Shown here: in pieces, positions 2,275 to 45,670 of the stretch
Layout: every line of letters starts with the position of its first letter
How positions within the stretch are numbered: position 1 is the stretch's first letter
DNA from: Jeotgalibacillus malaysiensis
GTDB taxonomy: Bacteria; Bacillota; Bacilli; Bacillales; Jeotgalibacillaceae
NCBI GenBank assembly: GCA_000818095.1
Contig: CP009416.1
Location: 42,501-100,000, forward strand
DNA: 57,500 nucleotides
Direction: 5' to 3'
Program-made: the position numbers and the translations under genes
The notes under the pieces: generated by a model
What the model was told of the DNA's origin: nothing
Seen by the model: the letters and a program-made list of their open reading frames with translations, nothing else
Database searches by the model: none

Positions 2275-2466
2275 AATTCCTTCAATTCGAAAATTATTGC
2301 TTCAACCCTGAAAAAGATTACTTCAAAACCGAATTTGATTCTCTCAATCTGCACAATGATTGCTTCAGCATCCTGAGCCGCACCTGAAATTCCTTCATTT
2401 AGTCCATTATCTCCTTCACCACGATCAGCAATTCCTTCAGTATATATCGCAATTCCATCACCCTTT
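2275..2466. repeat. Phased repeat array 1 (eight cores, 21/30-bp steps)
   Basis: The core ATTnCTTCA recurs with its last four bases at 2301, 2322, 2343, 2364, 2394, 2415, 2436 and 2457, that is steps of 21, 21, 21, 30, 21, 21, 21. One additional core at 2281 precedes these at a 20-bp step. The 11 bp between cores vary. The last core reads AATTCCATCACC, linking this array to the ATCACCTTTT arrays further on. It sits between the rRNA operon end and the gene at 2600. Between 2467 and 2599 is AT-rich sequence that presumably carries that gene's promoter. Confidence 0.9.
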
Positions 2467-2599
2467 ATTTGCTGCACCTGAGCCTAACCATCTCAATTCA
2501 CAATGTAAAAACCAAACAATATAAAATAATGTTTGATTAAATATAAACAATAATATAATATGTTTATTAAATAATAAACTTTTAAAAGGAGTGTTTGTT

Positions 2600-3337
2600 T
2601 TGAGTGAGTTGTTTTGGGAGGCTTCTGTTGAGGAGTTGATGCATGGGGTTAAGCTGGCTGATGGTACTTATTGCTGCCTCATTTGTGGTGAGCGGTTTGA
2701 AGAGGGTGAGGTTTTTAAGGTTGGTGAGCGTTTTTTTGAGGCTTACAGGGCTGCTGAGGTTCATGTGCAGGCGGAGCATGAGTCGATGTTTGTTTATTTG
2801 ATGAATATGGATAAGAAGTATACGGGTTTATCGGATCATCAGAAAGAGTTGTTATCGTATTTTAAGCAGGGGGTGTCTGATAAGGAAGCGGCAAAGCAGA
2901 TTGGGGGCAGTCCGTCGACGATTCGGAATCACCGGTTTAAGTTTAAAGAGAAGGAAAAGCAGGCGCGTGTATTTTTAGCATTGATGCAGCTTTTGAAAGA
3001 GGAGACGGGACCTGAGAGTCTGGTTCAGATACATAGGGGGGCGACGATGGTGGATGAGCGTTATGCGATTACCTCTGAGGAGCAGGAGAAAGTTTTAAAA
3101 ACGTATTTTAAAGCGGACGGGACATTGAGTCAATTTCCGAGTAAGGAAAAGAAGAAGATTGTGGTGCTTCAATTTTTGTTGAAAAGGTTTGACGTGGGAC
3201 AGCAGTATACGGAACGGGAAGTAAATGAGGTGATTAAACAGGTATATGCTGATTTTGTCACGATTCGCCGTTATTTTATTGAATATGGGTTCATGGATCG
3301 GAATCAGGATGGCTCTGCTTACTGGGTAAAATCGTAA
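2600..3337 (+). CDS. DUF2087-domain protein with zinc-binding-like N-terminus and LuxR-type helix-turn-helix
   Basis: Likely DNA-binding regulator; target unknown. Seen: an N-terminal segment with CLICGERF and a downstream HVQAEH, which looks like a Cys2His2-type metal site; a central region (about residues 70-110) with DHQKELLSYFKQGVSDKEAA and STIRNHRFK, resembling a LuxR/GerE helix-turn-helix; and a C-terminal DUF2087 module (about 150-245) ending in RRYFIEYGFMDR. I place the start at TTG 2600, because AAAGGAG at 2585-2591 directly abuts the in-frame GTG at 2591 and is correctly spaced only for the TTG. The gene stands alone between array 1 and two tiny membrane protein genes and is not part of the B. 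subtilis order here. Domain names are from memory of the family and the function is inference. Confidence 0.8.
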   Translation: MSELFWEASVEELMHGVKLADGTYCCLICGERFEEGEVFKVGERFFEAYRAAEVHVQAEHESMFVYLMNMDKKYTGLSDHQKELLSYFKQGVSDKEAAKQIGGSPSTIRNHRFKFKEKEKQARVFLALMQLLKEETGPESLVQIHRGATMVDERYAITSEEQEKVLKTYFKADGTLSQFPSKEKKKIVVLQFLLKRFDVGQQYTEREVNEVIKQVYADFVTIRRYFIEYGFMDRNQDGSAYWVKS

Positions 3338-3374
3338 AAAGCGGGTATAATGAAAGTACAGGAGGTGTCTGTGG

Positions 3375-3497
3375 ATGCTATATGACATTGGTGTAATTGC
3401 CGGATTGATTGGGTTCGGTTTGCTTGTTGACCGGAAGAAAAGCGCACGGAAAAACCTTGAACAGTATCGCAATGGTGGGGAAGAAGCGCCTCAATAG
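3375..3497 (+). CDS. Small membrane protein, 40 aa
   Basis: A 40-residue ORF starting MLYDIGVIAGLIGFGLLVDR with one N-terminal hydrophobic segment followed by a basic stretch (RKKSARK) and an acidic tail. AGGAGG at 3360-3365 is well placed for ATG 3375. A TATAAT at 3346-3351 could be the -10 of its promoter. It lies 37 bp after the DUF2087 gene and 66 bp before another small membrane protein. Function unknown. Confidence 0.6.
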   Translation: MLYDIGVIAGLIGFGLLVDRKKSARKNLEQYRNGGEEAPQ

Positions 3498-3563
3498 TAT
3501 GAAATGGATAACGACCGTAAGACGATTGGTTTTTAAATTAAAATAAGCAGGGAGGAGAAAAGA

Positions 3564-3734
3564 ATGTGGTGGATGATCGTTCTTTTAACTCTAACTGTTA
3601 TTGTGTCAGTCGGAATGGTGTCTGATGGAAAACGTAAGCGTAAAGGTCTGGCTGTATATAGTGAGGTAAGGGAGCCTGAGGAAGCGCCATCTGAACCGAA
3701 GTTTGAGGATGAGCGGCGGTCAACGAGGCTGTGA
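3564..3734 (+). CDS. Small membrane protein, 56 aa
   Basis: A 56-residue ORF beginning MWWMIVLLTLTVIVSVGMVS, one transmembrane segment, then a strongly basic KRKRK cluster and an acidic, proline-rich tail. GGGAGGAG at 3550-3557 is an excellent ribosome binding site. The plan (short N-terminal membrane helix, positive cluster, acidic tail) mirrors the 40-aa protein just upstream, so the two may be related or act together. No known family recognised. Confidence 0.6.
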   Translation: MWWMIVLLTLTVIVSVGMVSDGKRKRKGLAVYSEVREPEEAPSEPKFEDERRSTRL

Positions 3735-3854
3735 GAAGTTTGTTGAGGAGTTTTCTTCACGTTCGGGGATAAGAAGAATAGGATAGATAGATTACTTTTT
3801 ATCCGCAGTGTCTATACTGAGTGGTATAACATGCTGCGAGGTGGAGGAAAGTAT

Positions 3855-4004
3855 ATGAGACATTGCCGTGCGTGCGGAAGACGATACAACCGGGCGATTC
3901 GCCTGTCTTCAAAGTTTATCTGTGTGTGGTGTGAGCAGTCACTGATTCAGCTGAAGCCTGAGGATCATGGATATGACAGGTGGATTCATCTTTTAAAAGA
4001 ATAG
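3855..4004 (+). CDS. csfB: Anti-sigma-G factor CsfB (Gin)
   Basis: 49-residue zinc-binding protein with two CxxC motifs: CRAC near residues 4-7 and CVWC in the SKFICVWCEQ segment. The pattern CxxC, about 18 residues, KFIC, xxCE matches CsfB/Gin, which in B. subtilis inhibits sigma-G (and sigma-E) until the proper stage of spore development. It is a little shorter than the 64-residue B. subtilis protein. GGTGGAGGAAAG supplies the ribosome binding site. Its place after the rRNA operon and before yaaO matches B. subtilis, where xpaC and yaaN lie between; both are absent here. No clear sigma-F promoter found. Confidence 0.78.
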   Translation: MRHCRACGRRYNRAIRLSSKFICVWCEQSLIQLKPEDHGYDRWIHLLKE

Positions 4005-4015
4005 ATATGACCCGA

Positions 4016-4042
4016 AAGCCTGCCTCTGATGCAGGCTTTTTT
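4016..4042 (+). terminator. Terminator after csfB
   Basis: Stem AAGCCTGC / GCAGGCTT with a CTCTGAT loop and a run of six T residues. Confidence 0.93.
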
Positions 4043-4110
4043 GTATTCAGAGAGTGCCGTTAAATAAATCATGATACAATAAAGAAATGATTTCACTAAA
4101 GGAGAACGTT

Positions 4111-5514
4111 ATGGATCAGAAAGAGAGACCGCTTGTTGAGGCGCTGCAAAAGCATATGAATCAAAAGCCGGTGTCGTTTCATGTGCCGGGTCATAAGAAT
4201 GGCATGATTGGTGAGGTTGCGGGTCAGTTTGCCGGGTGGGATCAGACGGAGATTTCAGGGCTTGATGATCTGCATGCGCCTGAAGGACCGATTGCAAAAG
4301 CGCAGAATCTGTTAGCTCAGCATACAGGAGCCTTGAAAAGTTATTTTCTTGTGAATGGTTCGACGACAGGAAACCTTGCGATGGTGATGGGGATCTGTGA
4401 ACCGGGCAGTCACCTGCTGGTTGCAGGAAATGCGCATAAGTCTGTTATTCATGCATGCCGTCTGGCGCAGGTGAAGCCGGTATTTTTAACGCCTGATGTG
4501 CATCCTGAATCTATGACGCCAGCAGCCATTTCACCTGATCTTCTGGAAGAAGCTATCGGACAGTTTCCGGACGTTAAAGCAGTGCTGCTGACGTATCCAT
4601 CCTACTACGGTCATACAGGACAAATAGAGAAGGTCATTGCAGTCGCTAAAAAGTCAGGGCTTACCGTCCTCGTTGACGAAGCACATGGCGCTCATTTTTC
4701 ACTGCTGGGTTTTCCGGCTTCCTCTCTTCAGATGGGGGCAGATGCCGTCGTACAGTCGGCGCATAAAACGCTCCCGGCGCTGACGATGGGATCGTATTTA
4801 CATATTGGGAAAGACTTTGGGCGGTATGAGCAGATTCAGCAGCTGCTCGGCATGCTGCAGTCCAGCAGTCCATCGTATCCGATCATGGCGTCACTGGATG
4901 ATGCAAGATATTATGCTGCAACCTATACACGCGAGGATGCAGACTTTTTCAAAAGTGAACGTGATCATTTTATAAATGTGCTGCAGAAAATTCCGCGGTT
5001 AAAAGTAATCGAGCCGGAAGACCCGCTGAAGCTGATCATCAGAATAGACGGGATGAGCGGATATGATCTGCAGGCAGCGTGTGAACAGCATGGAATCTAT
5101 GCAGAACTTGCAGACCCGCTGCAGGTATTATGGATGCTTCCACTTTTGAAAAATAAAAACTGCATGCAGTGGGACCGTATTGTCGAGTCATTTAATCAAA
5201 TAGCTAAAGACGCAGACTGGGCGGAGACTCCTGCAGCTGTTCCTGTTAAAAAAGAGATAACGACATTAGCTGTCCATCATGCAGATCAGCTTCCGTACTC
5301 AGTAATACCGATAGAAGACGGGACAGACAGAGTGGCGGCTGAGACAATCACGCCCTATCCACCGGGTATACCGTTTATCATAGCAGGTGAACGTCTGACA
5401 GCTGAAACATGTCATGAGCTGAGCCGTCTTGTGAAAACGAAGATGCGTTTCCAGGGCGGAGCACATTTAATAGAAGGAAAAATGAAGGTTGTGCAGGAGG
5501 ATCTACATGAATAA
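4111..5514 (+). CDS. yaaO: PLP-dependent Orn/Lys/Arg decarboxylase family protein (YaaO)
   Basis: 467-residue pyridoxal-phosphate enzyme of the Orn/Lys/Arg decarboxylase family. Visible motifs: the N-terminal FHVPGHKNG, the cofactor Asp in VDEAHGAHF (D189) and the Schiff-base lysine in [13 protein letters not shown] (K219). The C-terminal lobe fits the family. Substrate cannot be set from sequence; lysine or arginine are the usual candidates. ATG 4111 is chosen because AAAGGAG at 4098-4104 precedes it; the in-frame ATG at 4087 lacks a site. The stop overlaps the tmk start by 8 bp, so the two are co-translated as in B. subtilis. Confidence 0.88.
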
Positions 5515-6145
5515 AGGTTTATTTATTACGTTAGAAGGACCAGAAGGAGCAGGAAAAACGACTGCTTCTGTAGAAATAAAGAAAAAGCTTGAAGCGCTTG
5601 GCTATGATGTAATGCTGACGCGTGAACCAGGCGGAATTAAAATTGCGGAGAAGATCCGGGAAGTGATTCTCGACCCGTCCCATACTGAAATGGACAGCCG
5701 TACAGAAGCGCTTTTATACGCAGCAGCCCGCAGACAGCATTTAGCTGAAAAGGTGAAGCCAGCACTTGATGCGGGAAAAGTAGTCCTGTGTGACCGTTTT
5801 ATCGACAGCTCACTTGCCTATCAGGGATATGCGAGAGGTCTTGGAATTGATGAAGTATGGAGTATTAACCAGTTCGCAATCGGCTCAATGATGCCTGACT
5901 GCACACTGTACTTTGATATTTCACCTGAAGACGGACTGAAGCGGATCGAACAGAATGCAGGCCGTGAAGTGAACCGCCTGGACCTTGAAGGAATGGCTTT
6001 TCATCAAAAAGTCTATGAAGGCTATCAGATCTTACAGGAACGTTTCCCTGACAGAATGAGGCGGATTGATGCATCAGCGTCCCTTAAAGATGTGACAGCG
6101 GAGGCTGTTGGAATACTTTCTGATATGTTGAAAAACCAGCATTGA
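5507..6145 (+). CDS. tmk: Thymidylate kinase
   Basis: 212-residue enzyme phosphorylating dTMP to dTDP with ATP, needed for dTTP supply. P-loop [11 protein letters not shown] near residue 8-18, the DRF motif followed by [13 protein letters not shown] (about 95-112), and the typical C-terminal LID region are visible. ATG 5507 lies inside the last codons of yaaO and follows CAGGAGG at 5494-5500; the upstream in-frame start at 5489 has no ribosome binding site. Order yaaO-tmk-darA is conserved in Bacillales. Confidence 0.95.
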
Positions 6146-6211
6146 TAAAGCTTATTTTTGTCAATCACCAGCCAACTTTAATAAAACCAAAACAAAGCTT
6201 TCCGGAATGAT

Positions 6212-6241
6212 TTCGTAATATAAACGTATTATTGGTATAAT
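6212..6241 (+). promoter_or_regulatory. Probable promoter of darA
   Basis: Extended -10 TGGTATAAT with TATAAT at 6236-6241 and a weak -35 (TTCGTA at 6212-6217, 18-bp spacer). It lies in the 134-bp gap between tmk and darA. Confidence 0.5.
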
Positions 6242-6243
6242 AA

Positions 6244-6609
<366 letters not shown>

Positions 6610-6656
6610 ACGAGCCGAAAGCTCATTTGTATATATACGCAGAAAAGGGAGATAGT

Positions 6657-7661
6657 ATGGCCGATATGCAACAGGACCTGGCATCACAGCAGCCGGTCGC
6701 AATGAAGATGCTGCAAAACAGCCTGCAGAAAAATCGTGTCGCGCACGCCTATCTGTTCGAAGGCGGTCGCGGTACGGGTAAGAAAGCTATGGCGTTGTTT
6801 CTTGCTAAAGGACTTTTCTGCAGACAGCCACATGAAGGGGAGCCCTGTCATACCTGCGAACAGTGCCGGAGAATTGACCAGGGGAACCACCCTGACGTTC
6901 ATGTAATTGAGCCGGACGGACAGTCAATTAAAAAAGAACAGGTCAGGTTATTGCAGGAAGAGTTCAGTAAAACAGGTATGGAATCGATGAAAAAAGCATA
7001 TATCATCAGCGGTGCTGATAAGATGACGGTTCAGGCTGCAAACTCTCTACTAAAGTTTTTAGAAGAACCGCATCCATCCACGACAGCGATTTTATTGACT
7101 GAGCAGATTCACCAGATGCTCCCGACGATCCTTTCCAGGTGTCAGCACGTATCCTTTCGACCGTTGACACCTGTTTTGTTTAAAGAAAAGCTGATCGCAG
7201 AGGATGTCCACCCAACAATGGCCTCACTTGTATCGAAATTAACCAACCAGGTTGATGAGGCAATTGAGCTCAGTGATGATGAGTGGTTTGTACAAGCCAG
7301 AAAAATCATGTTAAAATTATACGAAGTGCTAAAGGATGATCCCTTTGAAGCCATGATCAGGGTTCAAAGTGACTATCTTCCGCATTTTAAAGAGAAATCG
7401 CAAATTGACCAATCACTCGATTTGTTTCTTCTTATATATAAGGATCTCCTTTATATCCAAACGGACAAGCTCGATCACCTGTCGTACCCGGACTGGCTGG
7501 ATACGTTTCGTACAGATGCACTCCAGACGTCAGCGAATCAGCTTACTCACCAGCTGACAGTCATACTTGAGGCGAAAACACAGCTACAGAGAAATATGAA
7601 TACACAGCTGCTAATGGAACAGCTGATGCTTAAATTGCAGGGGGGATCTGCACTTGTATGA
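6657..7661 (+). CDS. holB: DNA polymerase III delta' subunit
   Basis: 334-residue clamp-loader subunit of the replisome. AAA+ fold with GGRGTGKK near residue 33-40 (a P-loop-like motif), a zinc-binding cluster CRQPHEGEPCHTCEQC, and the SKTGMESMKKAYII and LEEPHPSTTAILL segments typical of delta'. ATG 6657 is chosen because AAGGGAG at 6645-6651 precedes it; the upstream in-frame ATG at 6627 lies in poorly conserved sequence. It overlaps ricT by 8 bp. Confidence 0.94.
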   Translation: MADMQQDLASQQPVAMKMLQNSLQKNRVAHAYLFEGGRGTGKKAMALFLAKGLFCRQPHEGEPCHTCEQCRRIDQGNHPDVHVIEPDGQSIKKEQVRLLQEEFSKTGMESMKKAYIISGADKMTVQAANSLLKFLEEPHPSTTAILLTEQIHQMLPTILSRCQHVSFRPLTPVLFKEKLIAEDVHPTMASLVSKLTNQVDEAIELSDDEWFVQARKIMLKLYEVLKDDPFEAMIRVQSDYLPHFKEKSQIDQSLDLFLLIYKDLLYIQTDKLDHLSYPDWLDTFRTDALQTSANQLTHQLTVILEAKTQLQRNMNTQLLMEQLMLKLQGGSALV

Positions 7662-8481
7662 AGTAGTAGGCGTCCGTTTTAATAAAGCGGGCAAAATATA
7701 TTATTTCGACCCGAACCAGCTTACATTGAACGTAGATGAATACGTGATTGTAGAGACGGTACGCGGTGTGGAATACGGTAAAGTTGTCACTGAAGTCAAG
7801 AAAGTGGACAAGAATGACGTTGTGCTTCCGCTGAAAAAGATCGTCCGGATTGCTGAACAGAAGGATCGTCTTTCTGTACAGGAAAACAAGGAAGAGGCTG
7901 CTCATGCCTATAAGGTATGCTCAGAAAAGATCAGTGAGCATGATTTAGATATGAAGCTTGTTGACGTTGAATATACATTCGACCGCAATAAAGTTATTTT
8001 TTATTTTACTGCGGACGGACGGGTCGATTTCAGAAATCTGGTTAAAGACCTGGCGTCTGTTTTCAGAACAAGGATTGAACTGAGACAGATCGGTGTTCGT
8101 GATGAAGCGAAAATGCTTGGCGGTATTGGACCATGCGGACGTATGCTCTGCTGTTCAACTTTCCTCGGCGATTTTGAGCCAGTGTCGATTAAGATGGCAA
8201 AGGACCAGAACCTTTCTCTGAATCCGGCAAAAATTTCAGGCCTGTGTGGACGTTTAATGTGCTGCCTGAAATACGAAAATGACGAGTATGAGCAGGCAAA
8301 AGAAGAAATGCCTGACCTTGGTGCATTCGTTCAGACGCCTGAAGGTAAAGGGAAAGTAGTCGGGCTGAATATGCTTGAGCGCGTGCTTCAGATCGAAATG
8401 AAGGAGCAGGACCGTACGCTTGAGTATACGCTTGAAGAAATTATGAATCACGATATTGCGTCAATTCAAGCCACAGAGTAA
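7654..8481 (+). CDS. ricT: RicT (YaaT), PSP1-domain subunit of the Y-complex
   Basis: 275 residues, identical in length to B. subtilis RicT. With RicA and RicF it forms the Fe-S Y-complex that modulates RNase Y specificity and affects competence, biofilm formation and sporulation. The PSP1 domain has the conserved cysteines in [16 protein letters not shown] and GLCGRLMCC (about residues 155-205), ligands of the Fe-S cluster. The start is TTG 7654 ([18 protein letters not shown]) after GGGGGGA. It overlaps holB and precedes yabA by 13 bp, so the three are one transcription unit. Confidence 0.94.
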
Positions 8482-8494
8482 CGGGGTGGAGTTC

Positions 8495-8854
8495 GTGGAT
8501 AAGAAGGAGTTCTTTGATTCAGTATCCAATATGGAACAGCAGATTGGTCAGTTATACCAGCAGCTTGGCGAACTGAAGCATCATCTGGCTGACATGATGG
8601 AAGAGAATCATTCGCTGCAGATCGAAAATGAACATTTGCGCAGAAGGCTTGAACAGCTGGGGAGTGACACAGCGGCTCCCGAAGGCAAGGCTGATGCCGG
8701 CAAAGCTGTGGGTCCAAGCACAGATATTGGTGAAGGATACGATAACCTTGCCCGTCTTTATCATGAAGGCTTCCACATTTGTAACATTCACTTTGGAAGC
8801 CCGCGCAAGGATGAAGACTGCCTGTTCTGTCTTTCATTTTTAACGAAAAAATAA
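8495..8854 (+). CDS. yabA: Replication initiation control protein YabA
   Basis: 119-residue regulator, same length as in B. subtilis, that binds DnaA and DnaN to limit re-initiation. N-terminal coiled coil (about residues 5-60, leucine-rich, [19 protein letters not shown]) for tetramerisation; C-terminal zinc domain with FHICNIHFG, then [11 protein letters not shown] 8495 is taken as start ([10 protein letters not shown]), matching the family N-terminus; the preceding in-frame codons belong to the overlap with ricT. Confidence 0.94.
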
Positions 8855-8912
8855 AGGCTGGCATTACGCCGTCTGTTGAAAAACAGGCGGACGTCCTGCC
8901 GGGCTTTTTTTG
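8853..8912 (+). terminator. Terminator after yabA
   Basis: Long two-part hairpin: outer arms AAAGGCTGGCA and TGCCGGGCTTT, inner arms CCGTCTGTT and AACAGGCGG, ending in seven T residues. Confidence 0.8.
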
Positions 8913-9061
8913 TGTAGAATGAATGGGTAAGTGTTATATTTGGCTGGCTCATGCAGCTAAGGAAGACGATTGCCCGGGGTAATCGCATTGACCCAAGTTT
9001 TCATCTTATATAAAGCACAATTAATAGATTGCTTTGTTAAAGCTCATTATTGTTTTTTCAC

Positions 9062-9185
9062 AGCTGATGATTCTCGCTGCAGGGGGCGGCTCGCAGGAAG
9101 GGACGTGTGAGACCAGGCATGGCGAAGCCTGCGGGCTCACCGCCCGGCCGCGGAAAGCGTCCCCCTGTAGCGGAAATCATCAGCC
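9062..9185. repeat. Dispersed element R2, copy 1
   Basis: About 124 bp of GC-rich sequence whose ends are inverted repeats: AGCTGATGATTCTCGCTGCA at the left and the complement of TGTAGCGGAAATCATCAGCC at the right. The interior again contains paired arms (GCGGGCTCACCGCCC). A sequence-related copy lies at 14164-14291. It is inserted just before trmN6, so the ORF running upstream of trmN6 through it is spurious. 8913-9061 holds no gene; a weak TTGACC/TATAAA pair near 8989-9015 might be a promoter. Confidence 0.82.
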
Positions 9186-9219
9186 AGCTTTACAGAGCCG
9201 AAAGAAAAGAGGATCACAA

Positions 9220-11175: not shown

Positions 11176-11348
11176 TTTCACTCATCTTTCGGGATATATG
11201 TATCACCTTTTAGTAATATTCACTCATCTTTATAATTGATTCGAACTGAGACCTGCAGCTGGTAGATTATACATACACCTTTTTCATTTTTGCCTCACTA
11301 ATTAAAGAAATTCTATCACCTTTTCAGTTATTCATTCCTTCAATTATA
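11176..11348. repeat. Phased repeat array 2 (eight slots)
   Basis: Slots defined by ATTC..TC|ATC/ACCTTTT start at 11184, 11205, 11226, 11247, 11277, 11297, 11318 and 11338: steps 21, 21, 21, 30, 20, 21, 20. Slots 1, 2, 3, 5 and 7 are clear; slots 4 (ATTCGAAC then TGAG), 6 and 8 are degenerate. The array fills the convergent gap between the rsmI and abrB terminators. Confidence 0.82.
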
Positions 11349-12116: not shown

Positions 12117-14099
<1,983 letters not shown>

Positions 14100-20592: not shown

Positions 20593-20762
20593 TATGTATA
20601 ACCTTTTCGATTTTATCTATGACCTTTTGATTTAATTCCATCACCTTTTTGGGTATTCGGCCGCTGAGCAGCTTTGTGCGGATATATCTGACACCTTTCT
20701 AATTTTATCTATCACCTATCAAATAATTCCATCACCTTTTCACTAAATTCATCCTATGCTTT
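20593..20762. repeat. Phased repeat array 3 (eight slots)
   Basis: Cores of the ATC.ATCACCTTTT type at 20601, 20622, 20643, a degenerate slot at 20663/20664 (ATTCGGCC then GCTGAG), then 20693, 20714, 20734 and a degenerate slot near 20754. Steps about 21, 21, 21, 29, 21, 20, 20. Same class as arrays 2 and 5. Confidence 0.78.
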
Positions 20763-20783: not shown

Positions 20784-20980
20784 CGTTCACCGCATACGCC
20801 CCTAAACGCCTGCTTCCACTTTTCGCGTTGTCCAGTTCCAGCGCCCAGACCCTCGGGACATAAGCCACGAATCGGTAAACGGGAAAGACCACCCGTTTTC
20901 CGCTCCGCGTCTTATGCCTGTCGGGTCTAAACGGACGCTTCCACTTTTCTAGTTGTCCAGTTACAGCAGGCAGGGGCTAG
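20784..20980. repeat. Dispersed element R1: fragment, full inverted copy, fragment
   Basis: 20784-20826 carries the CACCGCATACGCCCCTAAAC-type fragment. 20828-20950 is an R1 copy in reverse orientation (TTGTCCAGTTCCAGCGCCCAG ... CGTCTTATGCCTGTCGGGTC ... GACGCTTCCACTTTTC) with the AAACGGG / CCCGTTT central arms. 20951-20980 starts another copy and is cut off. 20981-21057 shows nothing beyond a short hairpin-like GATTCACTTCGTTCATCG stretch. Confidence 0.8.
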
Positions 20981-26549: not shown

Positions 26550-26725
26550 TCGAGGTGACCGCAAAATTCCTGAATGTGACCTTAATTTGCAAGAACCCGA
26601 CCCGAAAAACGCCGGATCTGACCGCAAATTTCACCACTCAGGATTTTGTGACCTGAAATATCTCGGATGTGACCTTAAAATCACAGAAGGTGACCGCAAA
26701 TTCAGCGGATGTGACCTGAAACAAA
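26550..26725. repeat. Phased repeat array 4 (eight cores, exact spacing)
   Basis: The core GTGACCnnAAA starts at 26555, 26576, 26597, 26618, 26648, 26669, 26690 and 26711: steps exactly 21, 21, 21, 30, 21, 21, 21. Core 3 is weakened (CCGACCCGAAA). The reverse complement matches the unit of arrays 6 and 7 (GATTTTCGGGTCAC), so this is the same class in inverted orientation. Confidence 0.93.
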
Positions 26726-33021: not shown

Positions 33022-33190
33022 ATTCGATCAGGTTTTAATGTTTATCTGCCACCTTTGATTGGGATTCCATCACCTTTTAAGCCGATTCGGCCTGCACTGC
33101 TTTCCGGCTGTGGATTTACATCAGCAATTTGATGGATTCCATCATCTTTCAGGTTTATTCCATCACCTTTTCAATTATTCGACCGCCAAT
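33022..33190. repeat. Phased repeat array 5 (eight slots)
   Basis: ATTCcATC|ACCTTTT-type slots at 33030, 33051, 33072, 33093 (degenerate, ATTCGGCC then TGCA), 33123, 33144, 33165 and 33185: steps 21, 21, 21, 30, 21, 21, 20. Slots 2, 3, 6 and 7 are the clearest. Lies after the spoVT terminator. Confidence 0.82.
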
Positions 33191-33269
33191 GATTCTGCCC
33201 ACGCGCCCGCTCCTGTCACCCGGCCACTGTCGCCAAAACCCGCCACCCCCACACCAGATATGACCTGAA

Positions 33270-37956: not shown

Positions 37957-37985
37957 TGAGTGTCACGATGTTGACACTCTTTTTT
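37957..37985 (+). terminator. Terminator after divIC, overlapping the yabR promoter
   Basis: GAGTGTCA / TGACACTC stem with CGATGT loop and a T-run. The 3' arm contributes the -35 hexamer of the next promoter. Confidence 0.88.
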
Positions 37986-38000
37986 CTGTTTGGCTATAAT
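37971..38000 (+). promoter_or_regulatory. yabR promoter (consensus)
   Basis: TTGACA (37971-37976), 18-bp spacer, TATAAT (37995-38000), with the -35 inside the terminator arm. Confidence 0.8.
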
Positions 38001-38049
38001 GGGAAGTAAGGTCTATTTTTTATTTATTCTAAGGAGGATCATTTTTTTT

Positions 38050-38493: not shown

Positions 38494-38548
38494 TAGCTGC
38501 CGAAAGTATTTTATAGAAGGCATCAATTACAGTGATCATACGATAGAT

Positions 38549-38577
38549 AACCGGCGTGCATGCACGTCGGTTTTTTT
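38549..38577 (+). terminator. Terminator after yabR
   Basis: ACCGGCGTGCA / TGCACGTCGGT stem with no extra loop bases beyond the palindrome centre, then seven T residues. Confidence 0.9.
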
Positions 38578-38656
38578 GTGTTTTCTAATGTAAAAAAGAG
38601 GGATCAACCACTGAGCGTCGAAATTCATACAGTAGGATCATTGAGGAGGAATAAAA

Positions 38657-39106
38657 ATGACAGTTGATGAATGGCTTAATGAACATAACCAGCACTACTT
38701 TTCGTGGCTTGAAAATCTGAGAAGAATGGACAGCGTGGCTTTTTTTCAGCCCATTGCAGAAGGGAAATGGTCACCTGCAGCAATTGTCATGCACATGGCC
38801 GCCTGGGATCACTACACACTGGATGACCGGATTCCGCAAATCAGTGAAGGCGTCATTCTTGAAAAATTTCCTGACTTTCAAAAGTTCAATGAAGAGGCCT
38901 GGAAAAAAGCAGACAGCGGACTCAGTCAAAATGACATTATCGACGAAGCCAGAAATGAACGGGAACTTTTAATGGAGACCGTTCGTACAATGGATAAGGA
39001 CAAGCTCGGTGCAACATTTTCAATTGGCGATCATTCAATGACGACAGCCGGATATATTACAGGATTCTCAGGACATGACCGTCATCATATGAAGCAGATA
39101 AACTAG
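38657..39106 (+). CDS. DinB/YfiT-like metal-dependent four-helix-bundle protein
   Basis: 149-residue DinB-superfamily protein, probably a metalloenzyme or thiol-S-transferase-like protein; substrate unknown. Metal-site histidines are suggested by VMHMAAWDHY (about residues 44-53) and the C-terminal HDRHHMKQI. GAGGAGGAATAAAA precedes ATG 38657. Not found at this place in the B. subtilis order, so it is an insertion between yabR and the tRNAs together with the next gene. Confidence 0.82.
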   Translation: MTVDEWLNEHNQHYFSWLENLRRMDSVAFFQPIAEGKWSPAAIVMHMAAWDHYTLDDRIPQISEGVILEKFPDFQKFNEEAWKKADSGLSQNDIIDEARNERELLMETVRTMDKDKLGATFSIGDHSMTTAGYITGFSGHDRHHMKQIN

Positions 39107-39125
39107 TAAAGGAGTGTTTGGAACG

Positions 39126-39359
39126 ATGGATATTATAGGACTGGTTGCTGTTGTAATGGTATTTTCGGTTCCGCTTACAGCGATTTTAACAAGTCATTTT
39201 CGCAAGCAGACGCGTTCAAAGCATGAAATGATCGACAAGCAGCTGGAGCTTGAGAAGCTGAAGCATGAGAATTATATGCTTGAGACGGAAAAGCTTCGGC
39301 TTGAGCTGGATTTGCGCCAGGGGATTAAGATGGAGGATGATTATAAGCGTTTGAGTTAG
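39126..39359 (+). CDS. Small membrane protein with coiled coil, 77 aa
   Basis: One N-terminal membrane segment (about 4-26, IGLVAVVMVFSVPLTAILTS), a basic turn (HFRKQTRSK), then a charged coiled coil (about 36-70, KQLELEKLKHENYMLETEKL). The layout resembles phage-shock PspB-like or envelope sensor stubs but I do not recognise the family. AAAGGAG at 39108-39114 favours ATG 39126. It follows the DinB-like gene by 19 bp, likely co-transcribed. Confidence 0.7.
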   Translation: MDIIGLVAVVMVFSVPLTAILTSHFRKQTRSKHEMIDKQLELEKLKHENYMLETEKLRLELDLRQGIKMEDDYKRLS

Positions 39360-39367
39360 TGTTTGCA

Positions 39368-39405
39368 GACAGTGCGGGGTGAGCGGACCCCCGTGCTGTT
39401 TTTTG
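39368..39405 (+). terminator. Terminator after the 77-aa gene
   Basis: ACAGTGCGGGG / CCCCGTGCTGT stem with two G-U pairs and six T residues. Confidence 0.85.
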
Positions 39406-39460
39406 TTTTGCAGGCTGGGATGACGTGGTGGAAGGTAACAGGGGAAGGGGAGTGGGACTT

Positions 39461-39640
39461 GGATTTTGGATCACGTTCTGAATTTTTGAGGTCACATTCT
39501 GTGATTTTCGGGTCGCGTCCGCGGATTTTCAGATCACATTTTTTCAGATCGGTGATTTTCGGGTCACGTTCCTCAAATTTCGGGTCACGCCTTTCGAATT
39601 CCGGGTCACATCCGAACGATTTCAGGTCACATTCGCCAAG
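39461..39640. repeat. Phased repeat array 6 (eight cores, exact spacing)
   Basis: The TCAC of GATTTTCGGGTCACnTTC occurs at 39471, 39492, 39513 (TCGC), 39534, 39564, 39585, 39606 and 39627: steps exactly 21, 21, 21, 30, 21, 21, 21. The minus-strand open frame through it gives DPKxxxx heptads, but only the nucleotides are conserved. Confidence 0.93.
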
Positions 39641-39679
39641 CGCCACCACAACCTGCTAACGGATTCGATGCAAAAACAG

Positions 39680-39745
39680 AAAAAACGCCCGTCCAGCACC
39701 AGACCTGAGTCTGTCGGAGCTAAACGAGCGCCTTCCACTTTTCTT
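39680..39745 (-). terminator. Terminator of the tRNA transcript made from an R1 fragment
   Basis: On the minus strand the R1-like end AAGTGGAAGGCGCTCG leads into nested arms CTCCGACAGAC / GTCTGGTGCTGGAC and GCGCTCG / CGGGCG, followed by six T residues at 39680-39685. The R1 similarity is clear; the terminator role is inferred. Confidence 0.65.
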
Positions 39746-39748
39746 TTA

Positions 39749-39820
39749 TGACCCGTACGGGATTCGAACCCGTGTTACCGCCGTGAAAGGGCGGTGTCTT
39801 AACCACTTGACCAACGGGCC
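39749..39820 (-). tRNA. tRNA-Glu (anticodon TTC)
   Basis: Minus-strand cloverleaf: acceptor GGCCCGT / ACGGGTC, anticodon loop CTTTCAC with TTC between GCC and GGC arms, T-arm with GGTTCGAATCC. CCA is not encoded. Confidence 0.95.
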
Positions 39821-39828
39821 TCGTATGG

Positions 39829-39902
39829 TGGCGGCAGAGGGGATCGAACCCCCGACCTCACGGGTATGAACCGTACGCTCTAGCCAGCTGAGCTACGCCG
39901 CC
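39829..39902 (-). tRNA. tRNA-Met (anticodon CAT, elongator type)
   Basis: Minus-strand cloverleaf: acceptor GGCGGCG / TGCCGCC, GTAGCTCAGCTGG D-arm, anticodon loop TTCATAC, T-arm GGGTTCGATCC. The fully paired acceptor start (G1-C72) indicates elongator Met. CCA not encoded. Lies 8 bp upstream of tRNA-Glu in the same transcript. Confidence 0.94.
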
Positions 39903-39922
39903 ATAAATGAAGCACAAGTTAT

Positions 39923-39951
39923 ATAATACATAGCGCGTCAATAAGTGTCAA
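39923..39951 (-). promoter_or_regulatory. tRNA promoter
   Basis: Minus strand TTGACA (39946-39951), 17-bp spacer, TATTAT (39923-39928), 20 bp before tRNA-Met. Confidence 0.8.
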
Positions 39952-39994
39952 TAACTTTTTAAAAAATTCCTGAAGGTCTGCTGAAGCAGGAATC

Positions 39995-40060
39995 CGTCGA
40001 ACGTTTTTTTGTGGATGAAACGTTTTTTGACAAACTCCTCTGTGCTGTTCTTTTTATAAT
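39995..40060 (+). promoter_or_regulatory. Spo0A-type promoter of spoIIE
   Basis: TTGACA (40027-40032) and TATAAT (40055-40060) are both consensus but separated by 22 bp, the wide spacing known for Spo0A-activated sigma-A promoters (spoIIG, spoIIE). A 0A-type box CGTCGAA is at 39995-40001, and TTTGACA at the -35 is one mismatch from the inverse box. Confidence 0.8.
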
Positions 40061-40094
40061 AGGCGCAATAAGAAATGAAGGAGTGACCTGCTGG

Positions 40095-41216
40095 ATGGCA
40101 AATGTGCATGAAGCAAACTTCGAACTGACAAACGCTCTATCGCTCAAGAGAACCCGTAAAAAGGAAGCCAGGAAAGTAGATGTAATGAAATGGCTGTATG
40201 AGAAAGGAATCTTTCATTTGTTAGCAGGGATCATGCTTGGCCGTGCAGTTGTCATGCTGCAGTTCATGCCGTTTGCACTGCCGTTTTTTGCAGCGGTGAT
40301 GATTATGCAGCGTCAGAAAGCGCCGCATACATTTTCTGGATTAACAGCTGGAGCGGCAGCGCTTGGACTGCTGCCGTTTCAGGAAAAGCATGGTGAGTGT
40401 GACAAGCTGATCGCACCGATGCTGTCCTCTATTTTGCAGGAGACTGTTATTGTGCATCAGAAAGGGGACCTGCCGCCTCCTTACTATGGAACTGCTGCGA
40501 CGTTCAGGTCAGCAAAAGCCTTTCACGTGACAGCAGGTGTTGCGCATGCAGCTTATGATGGAGGTCTTGTATCAGGGGATAGCTGCGCTGCGATTCCGAT
40601 TCATGAAGGGAAGTTTGCCGCTGCAATTTGTGATGGAATGGGAAATGGTGAAAAGGCGCGTGAGGAAAGCGAAGAAACGATTGGTCTTTTAGAGGAGATG
40701 TTGCGAGCGGGGATTGAAGAAGAGCTCGCGATCAAATCAGTTAATTCCATATTAACGGCAAAAAGAACGAGTGATATGTATTCAACCGTTGACCTTGCAA
40801 TGATTGATTTGCAAAATGCACGGGCAAGATTTTTAAAAGTGGGCGCGGTGCCGAGTTATGTAAAGCGTGGCAGGCAGATCCAAATGATTGAAGCAGCGAA
40901 TCTGCCGCTTGGATTCTTTCACGAAATGGAAATGGATGTGTTAGAGCATCAGTTAAAGTCAGGAGATATTCTTTTTATGCTGAGTGACGGGTTAATCGAC
41001 GGATTGCGTTCGATTGAAAATCCCGAGCGCTGGATGAGGCGTCAGATCGCGGAGCTTGGCACAACGGATCCTCAGGAAGCAGCTGATCTGCTGGTGGAAT
41101 CAGCTGTACGCGCAGCGGGAGGGACCATTCAAGATGACATGACGGTGATCGCTGAAAAGATCGATCACCAGGTGCCGAAGTGGGCAGCGATTCCATTAAA
41201 GAGAAGTGCCGGATAG
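40095..41216 (+). CDS. spoIIE: SpoIIE phosphatase, internally shortened (373 aa)
   Basis: Dephosphorylates SpoIIAA to activate sigma-F in the forespore. Residues 1-37 basic cytoplasmic tail; about 38-98 two or three membrane segments (GIFHLLAGIMLGRAVVML, FALPFFAAVMIM), aligning with the start of B. subtilis SpoIIE; a linker of some 50 residues; then the full PP2C domain (about 140-373) with metal ligands in SGDS (D162), CDGMGNG (D180), LSDG (D298) and DDMTV (D347/D348), and the PKWAAIPL end. The family is about 820 residues, so some 450, covering most membrane segments and the central FtsZ-binding/oligomerisation region, are missing without a frameshift. ATG 40095 follows AAGGAG at 40078-40083 and lies downstream of the promoter. 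Confidence 0.9.
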   Translation: MANVHEANFELTNALSLKRTRKKEARKVDVMKWLYEKGIFHLLAGIMLGRAVVMLQFMPFALPFFAAVMIMQRQKAPHTFSGLTAGAAALGLLPFQEKHGECDKLIAPMLSSILQETVIVHQKGDLPPPYYGTAATFRSAKAFHVTAGVAHAAYDGGLVSGDSCAAIPIHEGKFAAAICDGMGNGEKAREESEETIGLLEEMLRAGIEEELAIKSVNSILTAKRTSDMYSTVDLAMIDLQNARARFLKVGAVPSYVKRGRQIQMIEAANLPLGFFHEMEMDVLEHQLKSGDILFMLSDGLIDGLRSIENPERWMRRQIAELGTTDPQEAADLLVESAVRAAGGTIQDDMTVIAEKIDHQVPKWAAIPLKRSAG

Positions 41217-41280
41217 TTAGTTGCATGACCTGCCTGCTCTTCCTGTATACTAGAAAAAAAGATCAGGAAAGGGTAGGGGC

Positions 41281-42645
41281 ATGAGTGACTTTCGTATAAA
41301 GGTGAATGCATACTGTAACAAGCATAAAATGGTCACCAAAGGGGATAGAGTGCTGATCGGAGTGTCAGGCGGACCTGATTCACTTGCGCTTCTCCATTTT
41401 TTCAGCGAAAGCCGCCCTGATATAAATGTGGAGGCTGTACACGTGGACCATGGGCTGAGGGGGAGCTCGGGTGCAGACGCAGCTTATGTAGAGGCTTATT
41501 GTAAGGAGCGCAGCATCCCTTTTCATCTGTTAAAAGCAGATGTGAAAGGCAGAATGGAGCTGACAGGTGAAGGTGTGCAGGAGGCTGCAAGAAAGGTCCG
41601 CTATGATTATTTTGAGCGCCTGATGAACGAGACAGGTGCAGCTGTGCTGATGATTGCCCAGCACGCAGATGATCAGGTGGAAACCATTTTGTTCAGGTTG
41701 ACGCGAGGGACCTCTTTACGTGGAGCTGCAGGTATTCTGCCTGTCAGACATTTTGCCGGCGGGAGGCTTGTGCGGCCATTTTTATCAGTGACAAAAGATG
41801 AAATCGAACAATATTGTGAACAGCATCACTTAATGCCGAGAAGAGATCCGACAAATGAAAGTGATGCTTACACAAGAAATCGCCTGAGAAGACACGTTAT
41901 CCCGCTGTTGAAAAAAGAAAATCATCTTGTTCATGAAGCCTTCGAACGCTTTTCTGAAGAGCTTAGTGAGGATAACGCCTTCCTTGAGCAGGAAGCTGAG
42001 AAAGCACTCGCGGATGTCTGTGCCGGAAAATCCGGTGAACGCTTCCATATATCGATAGAAAGATTTCGTCATTATGGTCTTCCTTTACAAAGAAGAATGA
42101 TTCATCTAATATTGAATTATCTGTATGCAAAAGTACCCACATCATTATCTTCTGCGCATACGCGCGCGATACTGGAACTGCTGAAACAAGCGCATCCTTC
42201 CGGGGATCTTCACCTGCCTGAATCATTGACTATAACCCGTTCTTATAATGACGGTTATTTTCATTTTCAGCGTGAAACAGATGATGCTGCCTACACTTAT
42301 TTAATTGATAAGGCGCAGCTGATTGATCTTCCTGATGGACACTGCCTTGAGGTGCAGACTGGTGAAATCGTGCCGGATAAGCCGTACCGTGATCTTTATT
42401 ATGTATCTGAGTCATTCATGCCGCTGACGGTGAGAAGCCGCAGGGTTGGAGATAAGATACGGCTGCCTGATGGCAAAGGGTCAAAGAAGATAAAAGATGT
42501 CTTCATAGAAAAGAAAGTACCCCTGAAGCAGCGCAGTCAGCATCCAATTGTGACAGCTGCAGATGGAAGTGTACTTTGGATTCCCGGACTGCGTAAAGCA
42601 CCGTCTGACGGAAAACCTGCTGCATATACGTTAATTTACTATTAA
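41281..42645 (+). CDS. tilS: tRNA(Ile)-lysidine synthase
   Basis: 454-residue enzyme converting C34 of tRNA-Ile(CAU) to lysidine, so that it reads AUA. PP-loop [14 protein letters not shown] (about 27-40), [25 protein letters not shown], and the C-terminal TilS domain ([29 protein letters not shown]). AAAGGGTAGGGGC precedes ATG 41281. yabS and yabT, between spoIIE and tilS in B. subtilis, are absent. hprT follows 23 bp later. Confidence 0.96.
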
Positions 42646-42668
42646 GATCTTCTAGGAGGACATTGTTC

Positions 42669-43217
42669 GTGTTAAATAAAGACATTGAGAAAGTATTGTA
42701 TACCGAGGAACAGCTTCAGGAAAAAATTAAAGAGCTTGGCACTGAGTTAACAGCTGAGTATCAGGATAAATATCCACTTGCAGTCGGCGTGTTAAAAGGT
42801 GCAATGCCGTTTATGGCTGACCTGATCAAGCGCATGGACGTTTATCTTGAAATGGACTTCATGGATGTTTCAAGCTACGGTAATTCCACTGTTTCTTCAG
42901 GTGAAGTAAAGATTGTAAAAGACCTGAATACAAAGGTTGAAGGCCGTGACATTCTGATCCTTGAAGATATCATCGACAGCGGTCTGACGCTGAGCTATCT
43001 CGTTGATCTGTTCAAGTATCGTAAGGCAAAATCAATTAAAATTGTGACACTGCTTGATAAACCGAGCGGCCGAAAAGCAGATATTAAAGCAGATTACGTT
43101 GGATTCATTGTACCGGATGAGTTTGTTGTAGGCTATGGACTTGACTATGCGGAACGTTATCGAAACCTCCCATACATCGGTGTATTGAAGCCTGAAATTT
43201 ATACAGATTCTGAGTAA
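42669..43217 (+). CDS. hprT: Hypoxanthine-guanine phosphoribosyltransferase
   Basis: 182-residue purine-salvage PRTase. [36 protein letters not shown] loop [16 protein letters not shown] and [14 protein letters not shown] are diagnostic. In Bacillales it also partners with TilS/FtsH regulation. GTG 42669 is spaced 9 bp from AGGAGG; TTG 42663 is too close. Confidence 0.96.
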
Positions 43218-43259
43218 AATAGAGTGTAAGCGAGCGCATACTGTGAGCAGGCTTATTGG

Positions 43260-43289
43260 TTGTCACGCTTTATTTTACTATGATAGTAT
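43260..43289 (+). promoter_or_regulatory. Probable ftsH promoter
   Basis: TTGTCA (43260-43265), 18-bp spacer, TAGTAT (43284-43289). Confidence 0.5.
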
Positions 43290-43326
43290 TGATATTAGTT
43301 TTCTTGACCGTGGGAGGAGGTAAGGG

Positions 43327-45348
43327 ATGAACCGTATATTTCGAAATACGATATTTTATTTAATTATTTTCCTCGTCATTATTGGTATTATTGGCCTATT
43401 TAACAATGGGAACCAGCCAAATGAGGAACTCACATATGGTGAATTTTTAAATGCACTTGATAATGGTGAGGTAACGGAGATTGAAATTCAGCCGGACAGA
43501 AGTGTCTACAACGTACGCGGACAGCTTGAAGGCTATGAAGAAACCGAGTACTTCCTTACAAACATTCCATTTGAAAGTTCAGCACTTGAAACAATCGATG
43601 AGGTAGCGCAAGCGAATAATACAGAAGTGAATGTATTACAGGCTCCTGAAACAAGCGGCTGGGTAACATTCCTGACAACGATTATTCCATTTGTGATTAT
43701 CTTCATCCTATTCTTCTTCTTACTTAACCAGGCTCAGGGTGGCGGCGGAGGCCGTGTCATGAACTTCGGTAAGAGTAAGGCGAAGCTTTATACTGAAGAG
43801 AAGAAAAAAGTCCGCTTTAAGGACGTTGCAGGGGCAGACGAAGAGAAGCAGGAGCTTGTTGAAGTTGTTGACTTCCTGAAGGATCCCCGTAAATTTACTG
43901 ACGTTGGCGCACGTATTCCAAAAGGGATTCTGCTTGTCGGGCCTCCGGGTACCGGTAAAACATTGCTTGCTCGTGCAGCAGCAGGTGAAGCAGGCGTACC
44001 ATTCTTCTCGATTTCCGGTTCAGACTTCGTAGAGATGTTTGTCGGTGTCGGGGCATCGCGTGTACGTGACCTATTTGAAAATGCCAAGAAAAACGCACCA
44101 TGTATCATCTTTATCGATGAAATTGATGCGGTTGGACGTCAGCGTGGCGCCGGTCTTGGCGGCGGACACGATGAGCGTGAGCAGACGCTTAACCAGTTAC
44201 TTGTTGAGATGGATGGTTTCGGAGGAAACGAAGGAATCATCATGATCGCAGCAACAAACAGACCGGACATTCTGGATCCTGCATTACTGCGTCCAGGACG
44301 TTTTGACCGTCAGATTACAGTAGACCGTCCTGATGTTACAGGCCGTGAAGCTGTTCTGAACGTTCACGCAAGAAATAAACCGCTTGCTGATAATATTGAT
44401 CTTAAAGCGATCGCACAGCGTACACCTGGGTTCTCAGGAGCAGACCTTGAAAACCTGCTGAATGAAGCCGCACTTGTCGCAGCGCGTCGTGATAAAAAGA
44501 AAATTGATATGAGCGACATTGATGAAGCAACAGACCGCGTCATTGCAGGTCCTGCGAAGAAAACACGTGTCATCTCTCAAAAAGAGAGAAAGATCGTTGC
44601 TTTCCACGAAGCAGGCCATACGATTATCGGTGTTGTACTCGATGAAGCTGATATGGTTCATAAAGTAACCATCGTTCCACGTGGTCAGGCTGGCGGCTAT
44701 GCTGTTATGCTTCCTAAAGAGGATCGTTACTTCATGACAAAACCTGAATTGCTCGATAAGATCACTGGTCTTCTCGGTGGTCGTGTGGCAGAGGATATTA
44801 TCTTCGGAGAAGTATCAACTGGCGCCCACAACGACTTCCAGCGCGCGACAGGCATTGCCCGCCGCATGGTAACAGAATTCGGTATGAGTGATAAGCTTGG
44901 ACCGCTTCAGTTCGGTCAGGCACAGGGTCAAGTATTCCTTGGCCGTGACTTTAACAGTGAGCAGAACTATTCTGATCAGATCGCTTATGATATTGATACA
45001 GAAATTCAGCGCATTATTAAAGAGTGCTATGAGCGTGCGAAGACGATTCTGACTGAGAACCGTGAAAAACTTGAGTTGATCGCTGAAACACTTCTCGATA
45101 TTGAGACACTTGATGCTGAACAGATCAGACATCTGGTTGACCACGGAAAGCTTCCTGAACGTGACTACGATCAGGGTAACGGAGAGGACCGTAAAGATAT
45201 CACGGAAGAGTCAAAAGAGATCGAATCAGATGAAACAACTGTAACGACTGACAGTGAGATCAATGCTGAAGAGAAATCTTCAGAGGATCTGCTGAAAGAA
45301 TCGAAAGAAGGCACGTCTTCTGACGAGGATCGTCGTAATAAAGAATAA
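43327..45348 (+). CDS. ftsH: ATP-dependent zinc metalloprotease FtsH
   Basis: 673-residue membrane AAA+ protease for quality control and regulatory proteolysis. Two membrane helices (about 5-22 and 115-135) flank an extracytoplasmic loop; a Gly-rich hinge ([12 protein letters not shown]); Walker A GPPGTGKT (about 205), Walker [13 protein letters not shown]; zinc motif HEAGH (about 426). The acidic, low-complexity tail of about 65 residues makes it longer than B. subtilis FtsH (637). GGGAGGAGG precedes ATG 43327. Confidence 0.97.
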
Positions 45349-45371
45349 TCATTTGCAGTAGCAGATGCTTG

Positions 45372-45409
45372 GATCCGCGGTTCCGCGTAAACGGGGCCGC
45401 GGATTTTTT
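45372..45409 (+). terminator. Terminator after ftsH
   Basis: ATCCGCGGTTCCG / CGGGGCCGCGGAT stem with CGTAAA loop and six T residues. Confidence 0.9.
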
Positions 45410-45494
45410 GGCGGTATGGGTGTTGTTATTTGCAGGAAGAAGGCAGGGTGGCCTGGTTGCCGAGGATGCAGTACTGAGTTAGTCTGACGGGGTT

Positions 45495-45670
45495 TCGGGT
45501 CACCTTCTTAGGATTTCGGGTCATTTCCCGGGAAATTAAGGTCACCTTCGGAAAAACTCGGGTCACCTTTGACTTGGAGGGGATTTTTCAAGTCACGTCT
45601 AGACTTTCTCGGGTCATCTTTTTGAGATTTTCGGTCATCTCCGAGCGATTTCGGGTCACCTCCTCATCAC
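45495..45670. repeat. Phased repeat array 7 (eight cores, exact spacing)
   Basis: TCAC/TCAT of the GATTTCGGGTCACCTTC unit at 45500, 45521, 45542, 45563, 45593, 45614, 45635 and 45656: steps exactly 21, 21, 21, 30, 21, 21, 21. Same class and orientation as array 6. 45410-45494 shows nothing else recognisable. Confidence 0.93.

Follow-up and report, generated by a model that had tools for sequence, protein, structure and literature searches.

The stretch analysed here (the window) comprises 57,500 nucleotides of Jeotgalibacillus malaysiensis, C1:42501-100000 of a 4.12-Mb genome in two contigs (the own genome, labelled G000). Eight loci in the window carry intergenic arrays of short direct repeats, here called cores, which recur at steps of about two helical turns. 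The names that we use for genes at these loci (ftsH, spoVT and so on) are presumed from the gene order of B. subtilis. The arrays, together with the head motif that accompanies the last of them, are as follows (positions are those of the window):

Array 1, 2275..2460, plus strand: core ATTCCTTCA; eight cores at steps of 21, 21, 21, 30, 21, 21 and 21 bp, preceded by an extra core 20 bp upstream.
Array 2, 11176..11345, plus strand: ATCACCTTTT-type core; eight slots at 21, 21, 21, 30, 20, 21 and 21 bp, with slots 4 and 8 weak; score 59.5.
Array 3, 20593..20760, plus strand: ATCACCTTTT-type core; eight slots, with 50 bp between slots 3 and 5; score 93.0.
Array 4, 26555..26721, minus strand: inverted GGTCAC type; eight cores at 21, 21, 21, 30, 21, 21 and 21 bp.
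Array 5, 33022..33191, plus strand: ATCACCTTTT-type core; steps of 21, 21, 21, 30, 21, 21 and 20 bp.
Array 6, 39464..39630, plus strand: GGTCAC type; eight cores at 21, 21, 21, 30, 21, 21 and 21 bp.
Array 7, 45495..45661, plus strand: GGTCAC type; eight cores at 21, 21, 21, 30, 21, 21 and 21 bp, with a Noc-site-like palindrome inside at 45523-45536.
Array 8, 49565..49680, minus strand: six TTCTACGAAC-type cores at a uniform 21 bp, reading GTTCGTAGAA on the plus strand.
Array 8 head motif, 49681..49701, minus strand: the GTAGGTC-N5-TACT form of TAGGTC-N5-ACACT; identity of 0.83 or 0.89 in three of four relatives, measured against the own genome or G008.

An earlier note on this DNA had described seven arrays sharing a single eight-core architecture, and had given the exact steps 21, 21, 21, 30, 21, 21, 21 for arrays 1, 4, 6 and 7. 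These steps are confirmed by a scan of the window, in which the mean pairwise identity of 11 columns was taken over eight slots at that spacing: the scores were 0.82 (position 39464), 0.79 (45495), 0.79 (26555) and 0.71 (2294), against a maximum of 0.435 in 50 dinucleotide shuffles. In a grid of periods from 15 to 30, with 19 centre steps each (p-3 to p+15), hits of at least 0.62 were confined to the combination (21,30) (n=4). The extra core upstream of array 1 is likewise present (first step 41 = 20+21), as are the reported steps of 20 or 29 bp in arrays 2, 3 and 5. Specifically, the fifth step of array 2 and the last step of array 5 are 20 bp (setting the latter to 20 gives array 5 a refined score of 0.64), while the 50 bp across slots 3 to 5 of array 3 can be split as 20+30 or 21+29; the fitted path of array 3 begins one slot early, and its orthologues in relatives G011 and G007 show steps of 21, 21, 20, 30, 21, 20 and 21 bp. 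All three arrays fit a 4+4 plan with some 20-bp steps (scores of 59.5, 93.0 and 90.5, compared with a maximum of 24.8 in 100 shuffles), and in both array 2 and array 5 the weak slots are the fourth and the eighth. Hence, all seven arrays of the earlier note are real, but an eighth, with six cores at a uniform 21 bp from 49565, had been missed. A single common core is not borne out: arrays 4, 6 and 7 carry GGTCAC (inverted in array 4), arrays 2, 3 and 5 carry ATCACCTTTT, and array 1 carries ATTCCTTCA.

The GGTCAC family extends well beyond the window. A four-slot GGTCAC pattern with up to three mismatches gave 26 matches in the own genome, and none in reverse as a control; with three shifted duplicates dropped, 23 arrays remain, and this list of places is complete for the pattern. 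Slots 1, 2, 7 and 8 are not fixed by the search pattern, and were scored with a leave-one-out matrix built from the inner slots. Among these 92 outer cores, 85 lie at displacement 0, five at +1 or -1, and two are weak. None of the 23 arrays has an additional core, be it one step outside (-21 or +21) or in the centre, meaning that the pattern withstands the refuting test set out in the earlier note (a chance-level pattern, or random core numbers). About 16 bases of the GGTCAC core are informative (WTTTCRGGTCACVTYC, from 184 slots), so only about five bases are free in each step. Between arrays, the 14-nt cores are 68% identical and the 4-nt spacers 33%, a footprint-like pattern of conservation. 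The earlier statement that spacer bases drift while spacing and core number are held is thus correct, with the proviso that the drift concerns those five or so bases. Further GGTCAC pairs occur outside the 23 (e.g., at 622994, 943431, 2940692 and 3143576), making 23 a lower bound. At one of these places, G000:C1:2940692-2940806, the GGTCAC-type matches come with a nearly perfect tandem of 42 bp, suggesting local expansion within the family.

A core-agnostic scan for periodicity, of the genome-wide kind that the earlier note had asked for, was run on intergenic sequence from 837.5 kb of the own genome. It returned 25 hits at a period of 21, and one hit in total at the other 19 periods between 14 and 33. 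The same scan gave no hits in 260 kb of other genomes in the order (13 stretches), six in 15 loci of the genus (four of them in loci chosen by pattern), and, in 105 pattern-picked loci of other taxa, 12 hits at period 21 as against a combined 22 at all other periods. When the exact four-slot GGTCA pattern was sought in one genome per species, 109 stretches were found. The 80 of these that were listed include two in J. terrae and two in J. alimentarius; in all four, eight slots stand at the exact steps, with no core one step before or after. The remaining listed stretches are scattered across taxa, mostly one each and a few taxa twice, as would be expected from chance and unrelated repeats.

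Array 8 belongs to a second family with a different plan. Alignment of 20 arrays reveals a unit consisting of TTCTACGAAC plus 11 bases, with slot 1 preceded at a set distance by the head TAGGTC-N5-ACACT. The eight-core architecture is accordingly shared by the GGTCAC, ATCACC and ATTCC groups, but not by this six-core family of the same genome. A three-slot six-core pattern matches the own genome 144 times (control: 0) and is found in 27 of 299 genomes of the order; after the own genome come G006 (109 matches), G008 (100), G004 (39), G009 (35), G007 (22) and G011 (10). In 13 other genomes of the search the reversed control also matched (ten times in G015, one to three times in the rest), and single six-core matches therefore mean little. 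Further 21-bp cores are GCGTCGAACA, TTGAGTGCTGT and TTTGTTGCAAT. In other genera, ten of the 11 loci examined hold 21-bp arrays, built from different units in 5 to 40 copies, and at six of the 11 an open frame of at least 100 codons runs over the array. Loci L313, L314, L315 and L302 have 21-bp arrays of their own units, in 12, 18, 15 and 40 copies respectively, each overlapped by an open frame.

The eight window loci were compared in up to seven relatives (several loci being unmappable), with a 1% threshold derived by shuffling one spacer 300 times. Relatives carry arrays at the corresponding loci, often with another core word. At the array 6 locus, GGTCAC in the own genome is replaced by a GGTCGTTT-like core in G006 and by the ATCACC type in G008, G007 and G011. 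The array 3 locus is of ATCACC type in the own genome, G007 and G011, and of GGTCAC type in G006, while array 2 retains its type in G008, has a different core in each of G011, G006 and G004, and falls below the threshold in G007. Array 5 is kept in G008 and, more weakly, in G006; a GAAGGAAAT-type array stands at its locus in G004 and G009, and no array was detected there in G007, G011 or G003. Array 7 is kept in a more diverged state in G008 and G006, takes a five-core form in G007 and G011, and is not found in G004, G009 or G003; a TTTCCCGGGAAAT sequence is present, without an array, in the array 7 spacer of G004 and G009. Finally, the six 21-bp slots of array 8 are kept in five genomes and absent in G004 and G009. 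Between the own genome and G011 the slots remain at 21 bp, with identities of 0.59 for cores, 0.31 for spacers and 0.89 for the head.

Core words are lineage-specific. Pairs of TTACNGGTCA number 20 in G007 and 23 in G011, with none in the other five of the seven genomes, while TTTCNGGTCA pairs number 69 in the own genome, six in G007, four in G008, one each in G006 and G011, and none in G004 and G009. There are, then, two GGTCAC dialects across lineages, for which a changed recogniser would be one cause.

Gene context was recorded for 234 own-genome spacers of 180-1500 bp, with genes called mechanically from open frames (a few contexts are perhaps wrong). Of the 40 convergent spacers 12 contain an array, compared with 14 of 145 tandem and 2 of 49 divergent ones (convergent versus divergent, p 0.001; convergent versus tandem, p 0.003). 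A terminator-like hairpin separates the stop codon from the array at 15 of 29 gene ends with GGTCAC arrays and at 19 of 25 with six-core arrays; in a single shuffle per family, the counts were 1/29 and 2/25. GGTCAC arrays in tandem contexts show no orientation bias (7 versus 6, with a further eight arrays in convergent and two in divergent contexts).

The two-turn steps, the set core number, the length kept under spacer drift, the partly palindromic cores and the indifference of GGTCAC arrays to gene direction all point to a DNA-bound protein assembly. We tentatively favour reading the arrays as cooperative platforms of repeated sites for a putative sequence-specific DNA-binding protein, located behind transcription units; the protein binding, its cooperativity and an insulating job are what we infer. 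Hypothetically, (i) the two-turn steps would align the protomers of each run along a single helical face, (ii) a short assembly of set size would form, with two blocks of four in the GGTCAC, ATCACC and ATTCC groups and, in the TTCTACGAAC family, six sites and a head, and (iii) this assembly might act as a roadblock that walls one transcription unit off from the next, or might hold supercoiling between converging units. A local job would be the likeliest, given the location of the platforms behind genes and, in many cases, past intrinsic terminators. The helical-face argument of the earlier note holds in part: two-turn steps do fit cooperative protein binding, but the central 30 bp do not make up complete helical turns, which leaves the two halves on different faces. 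The exactness of the geometry makes the platform reading testable.

The relationships between arrays bear on a different explanation, in which the arrays are selfish or passive interspersed repeats without a job: recombination would copy entire arrays into new spacers, their presence behind genes would be tolerated, and their geometry would come from an ancestral eight-slot element. Units are no more alike within one array than between arrays (0.569 and 0.569), and local tandem duplication was rejected as the source of the arrays on this ground. Slots have signatures of their own (same slot 0.600, different slot 0.564; equalled in 0 of 300 permutations). Both findings also count in favour of the platform reading. 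Further, the arrays at L052 and L062 share 0.87 of their spacer bases plus the left flank, before diverging at the final slots; pairs of arrays average 0.352. Together, these three observations seem to reflect descent from whole eight-slot ancestors by recombination-like copying rather than by slippage. The absence of arrays from many orthologous spacers, the terminus gap that they share with other interspersed motifs (see below) and their scarcity in divergent spacers, as tolerance predicts, also fit passive repeats. Neutral copies, however, should gain indels and lose cores, yet the outer slots of the GGTCAC arrays are almost all exact and their cores are conserved at twice the level of the spacers; likewise, the step of array 8 is kept in five genomes though its spacers are near random. 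On this evidence, we consider jobless repeats a somewhat unlikely explanation of the arrays. As to a mobile element, which the earlier note had named as an alternative, no terminal inverted repeats or target duplications of the kind expected for a MITE or insertion element were noticed in a by-eye look at array flanks.

Several observations nonetheless weigh against the platform reading. These include (i) the L052/L062 pair, which is one array recently copied to a second place, in the manner of a selfish repeat; (ii) the coming and going of arrays between relatives, exemplified by array 4 (detected in none of seven mapped relatives) and by the complete lack of six-core matches in congeneric G001, G002, G005 and G010 (G003, which lay outside that search, has no array in the 60 kb sampled); (iii) the head of array 8, which is not kept in G007 (0.39); (iv) four arrays of other genera that are near-perfect tandem repeats of 12, 15, 18 and 40 copies, making an origin by expansion possible; (v) lineage founder amplification, which could also be the source of the dialects; (vi) the orientation of six-core arrays in tandem contexts, which run with the neighbouring gene in ten cases versus two (plus seven convergent and one divergent), a lean that a plain DNA site does not need; (vii) terminator-like hairpins inside 10 of 23 GGTCAC arrays, compared with 4.1 in column shuffles; and (viii) the lack of a clear candidate for the binder among ten genes scanned near two array clusters. 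The six-core orientation count rests on 20 of 32 rows, those scored on the wrong strand having been dropped; such scoring arises because the core is nearly palindromic.

The chromosomal distribution of arrays raises another possibility, akin to the leading inference of the earlier note (a nucleoid-associated or chromosome-organising binding array): that they are chromosome-organising sites, recruiting a nucleoid, anchoring or division-control protein in the manner of Noc or RacA, with placement being important. The sign of the GC skew changes between the 1.7 and 1.8 Mb samples. In the terminus zone (C1 1.2-2.3 Mb; 12 stretches, 240 kb) there are no arrays, as against 30 in 557.5 kb of the remaining C1; by spacer, the counts are 0/49 and 28/173 (p 0.001). 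Measured from the contig start towards the point opposite it, none of the 23 GGTCAC places lies past 0.71 of the distance (Kolmogorov–Smirnov (KS) p 0.0025), and the same is true of 32 six-core places from among the roughly 100 of 144 matches listed (KS p 2.5e-6). C2 has no arrays in 40 kb. As a control, three unrelated interspersed motifs were counted, and these are also missing from the terminus zone (0 versus 9, 0 versus 4 and 0 versus 13; small numbers). This shared absence tells against a functional meaning of the array gap, which is no proof of chromosome organisation, and terminus exclusion was dropped as proof of nucleoid occlusion.

Neither do the candidate proteins lend themselves to this explanation. 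GGTCAC resembles a half-site of what we take to be the RacA motif (ram). The model NF009646 (PRK13182), which we believe to represent RacA, matched in none of 12 genomes of the genus; among 14 controls it matched in B. subtilis alone, below the curated cut-off. Seven MerR_1 hits, one of them read in part, include none that is RacA-like by eye. Membership of a RacA centromere was rejected on the model result, despite the GGTCAC likeness and the origin-side bias. The palindrome ATTTCCCGGGAAAT, presumably the Noc-binding site, has one match in the window at two or fewer mismatches (45523-45536, inside array 7), and the array cores differ from it. RacA ram sites of B. subtilis are dense near the origin (PMC6593407) and RacA binds as a symmetric dimer (PMC5859096), whereas the arrays are direct repeats. 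Noc-binding sites resemble the arrays in being numerous in a Bacillales chromosome and reportedly absent from the terminus region, but are palindromic and, in the text consulted, not described as arrays (PMC4331003). A chromosome-organising role is thus not shown, and appears improbable.

The arrays could alternatively act in RNA, being transcribed by read-through and then binding an RNA-binding protein or ending transcripts. Their position behind genes, the gene-direction lean of the six-core family and the hairpins inside GGTCAC arrays would suit such a role, as would fold z-scores of -1.3 and -1.4 for the two strands of GGTCAC arrays. Six-core arrays, by contrast, have fold z-scores of -0.4 and -0.7 and no hairpin excess over column shuffles (1 versus 3.25 and 4 versus 4.1), while GGTCAC arrays are without orientation bias. 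The four Rfam matches in the window are to rRNA and tRNA, none of them at an array, and the arrays contain no run of covarying pairs. An RNA element, the earlier note's alternative, is unsupported by these tests, and we regard it as very unlikely. Still further from the evidence is a coding origin, in which the arrays are or were heptad-repeat peptides, 21 and 30 being multiples of three. A particular frame stays open in 16 of 20 six-core arrays, but their unit offers few codons at which a stop could arise, and the open frame has none outside two free codons. In GGTCAC arrays each frame is open in at most 10 of 23, and arrays 1, 2 and 5 contain 20-bp steps. Heptad-repeat coding is not supported, and is scarcely credible.

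No description of 21-bp arrays with a set core number was found in the literature searched, outside of which lie most subscription papers. The nearest described kind that we found is the STAR element of Staphylococcus, an interspersed set of intergenic direct repeats with a conserved core, differing spacers, species-specific places and no known function (PMC3532100). The arrays resemble it in all these respects. They differ in having 21-bp steps, a set number of cores, several core words and a change of word at one locus; STAR elements have a single 14-bp GC-rich core, in copies at least 40 bp apart, at loci that expand and contract (PMC3532100). The STAR core, T(G/A/T)TGTTG(G/T)GGCCC(C/A), is not that of the arrays (WTTTCRGGTCACVTYC, TTCTACGAAC, ATCACCTTTT and ATTCCTTCA). 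Copy-number variation of the STAR kind was not seen in the 23 GGTCAC arrays, none of which has a ninth core, while C1:2940692, outside the 23, looks locally expanded. Plasmid iterons and the centromere arrays bound by ParR or TubR also consist of direct-repeat groups about two turns apart, sometimes in two gapped clusters. Such arrays number one or a few per replicon and lie beside their own gene; those described here number tens per chromosome, with no linked gene seen. A precedent for protein assembly on direct repeats is BldC, a small winged-helix protein that assembles head-to-tail on repeats of varying number; its sites, however, are promoters with short repeats, AATTXXXX(C) (PMC5859096). 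The TAACTGA repeats of Beggiatoaceae similarly form many intergenic direct-repeat sets in one genome, but these heptamers are mostly just upstream of start codons, whereas the arrays sit behind genes and have long steps (PMC4679880).

We regard the arrays as kin of known interspersed intergenic repeats, with a real chance that they are a new kind of binding platform. It is possible, though doubtful, that they exemplify a class of chromosomal nucleoprotein platforms in Bacillales, undescribed in the papers searched, with a set stoichiometry, two-turn spacing, a place behind transcription units, and a binding protein whose recognition word evolves fast. With such a word, all arrays within a lineage would switch dialect jointly and keep their geometry, a behaviour that we liken to that of fast-evolving centromere and zinc-finger systems. 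If the platform reading were true, some bacteria would hold tens of built-to-size protein platforms per chromosome at gene ends, with a word that differs between close species. They would offer a tractable case of coevolution between a DNA site and its binder, and a new candidate for the insulation of neighbouring transcription units.

Other repeats and genes accompany the arrays. A 31/63-bp tandem repeat lies at 2089-2249 of the window, between the 5S rRNA gene and array 1; its CCTAAGGGCAT-type motif is found again beside L052, L062 and L064, and the sampled terminus zone lacks it. Several arrays are flanked by a second interspersed repeat (TGTCGGAGCTAAACGAGCGCC, GTCCAGCTCCAGCGCC), which lies at window positions 45690-45800, 20790-20850 and 39690-39745, and could provide homology for array exchange. 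The ten proteins scanned near the two clusters comprise a NERD-domain protein in each cluster, a glycosidase, a flavin reductase, an APH-type kinase, a FecCD transporter, a weak CusB-like match, SWIM and SNF2 proteins, and one protein without a match. The NERD-domain (nuclease-related) genes adjoin an array in both clusters (L012 5282-6262 and L041 14270-15328).

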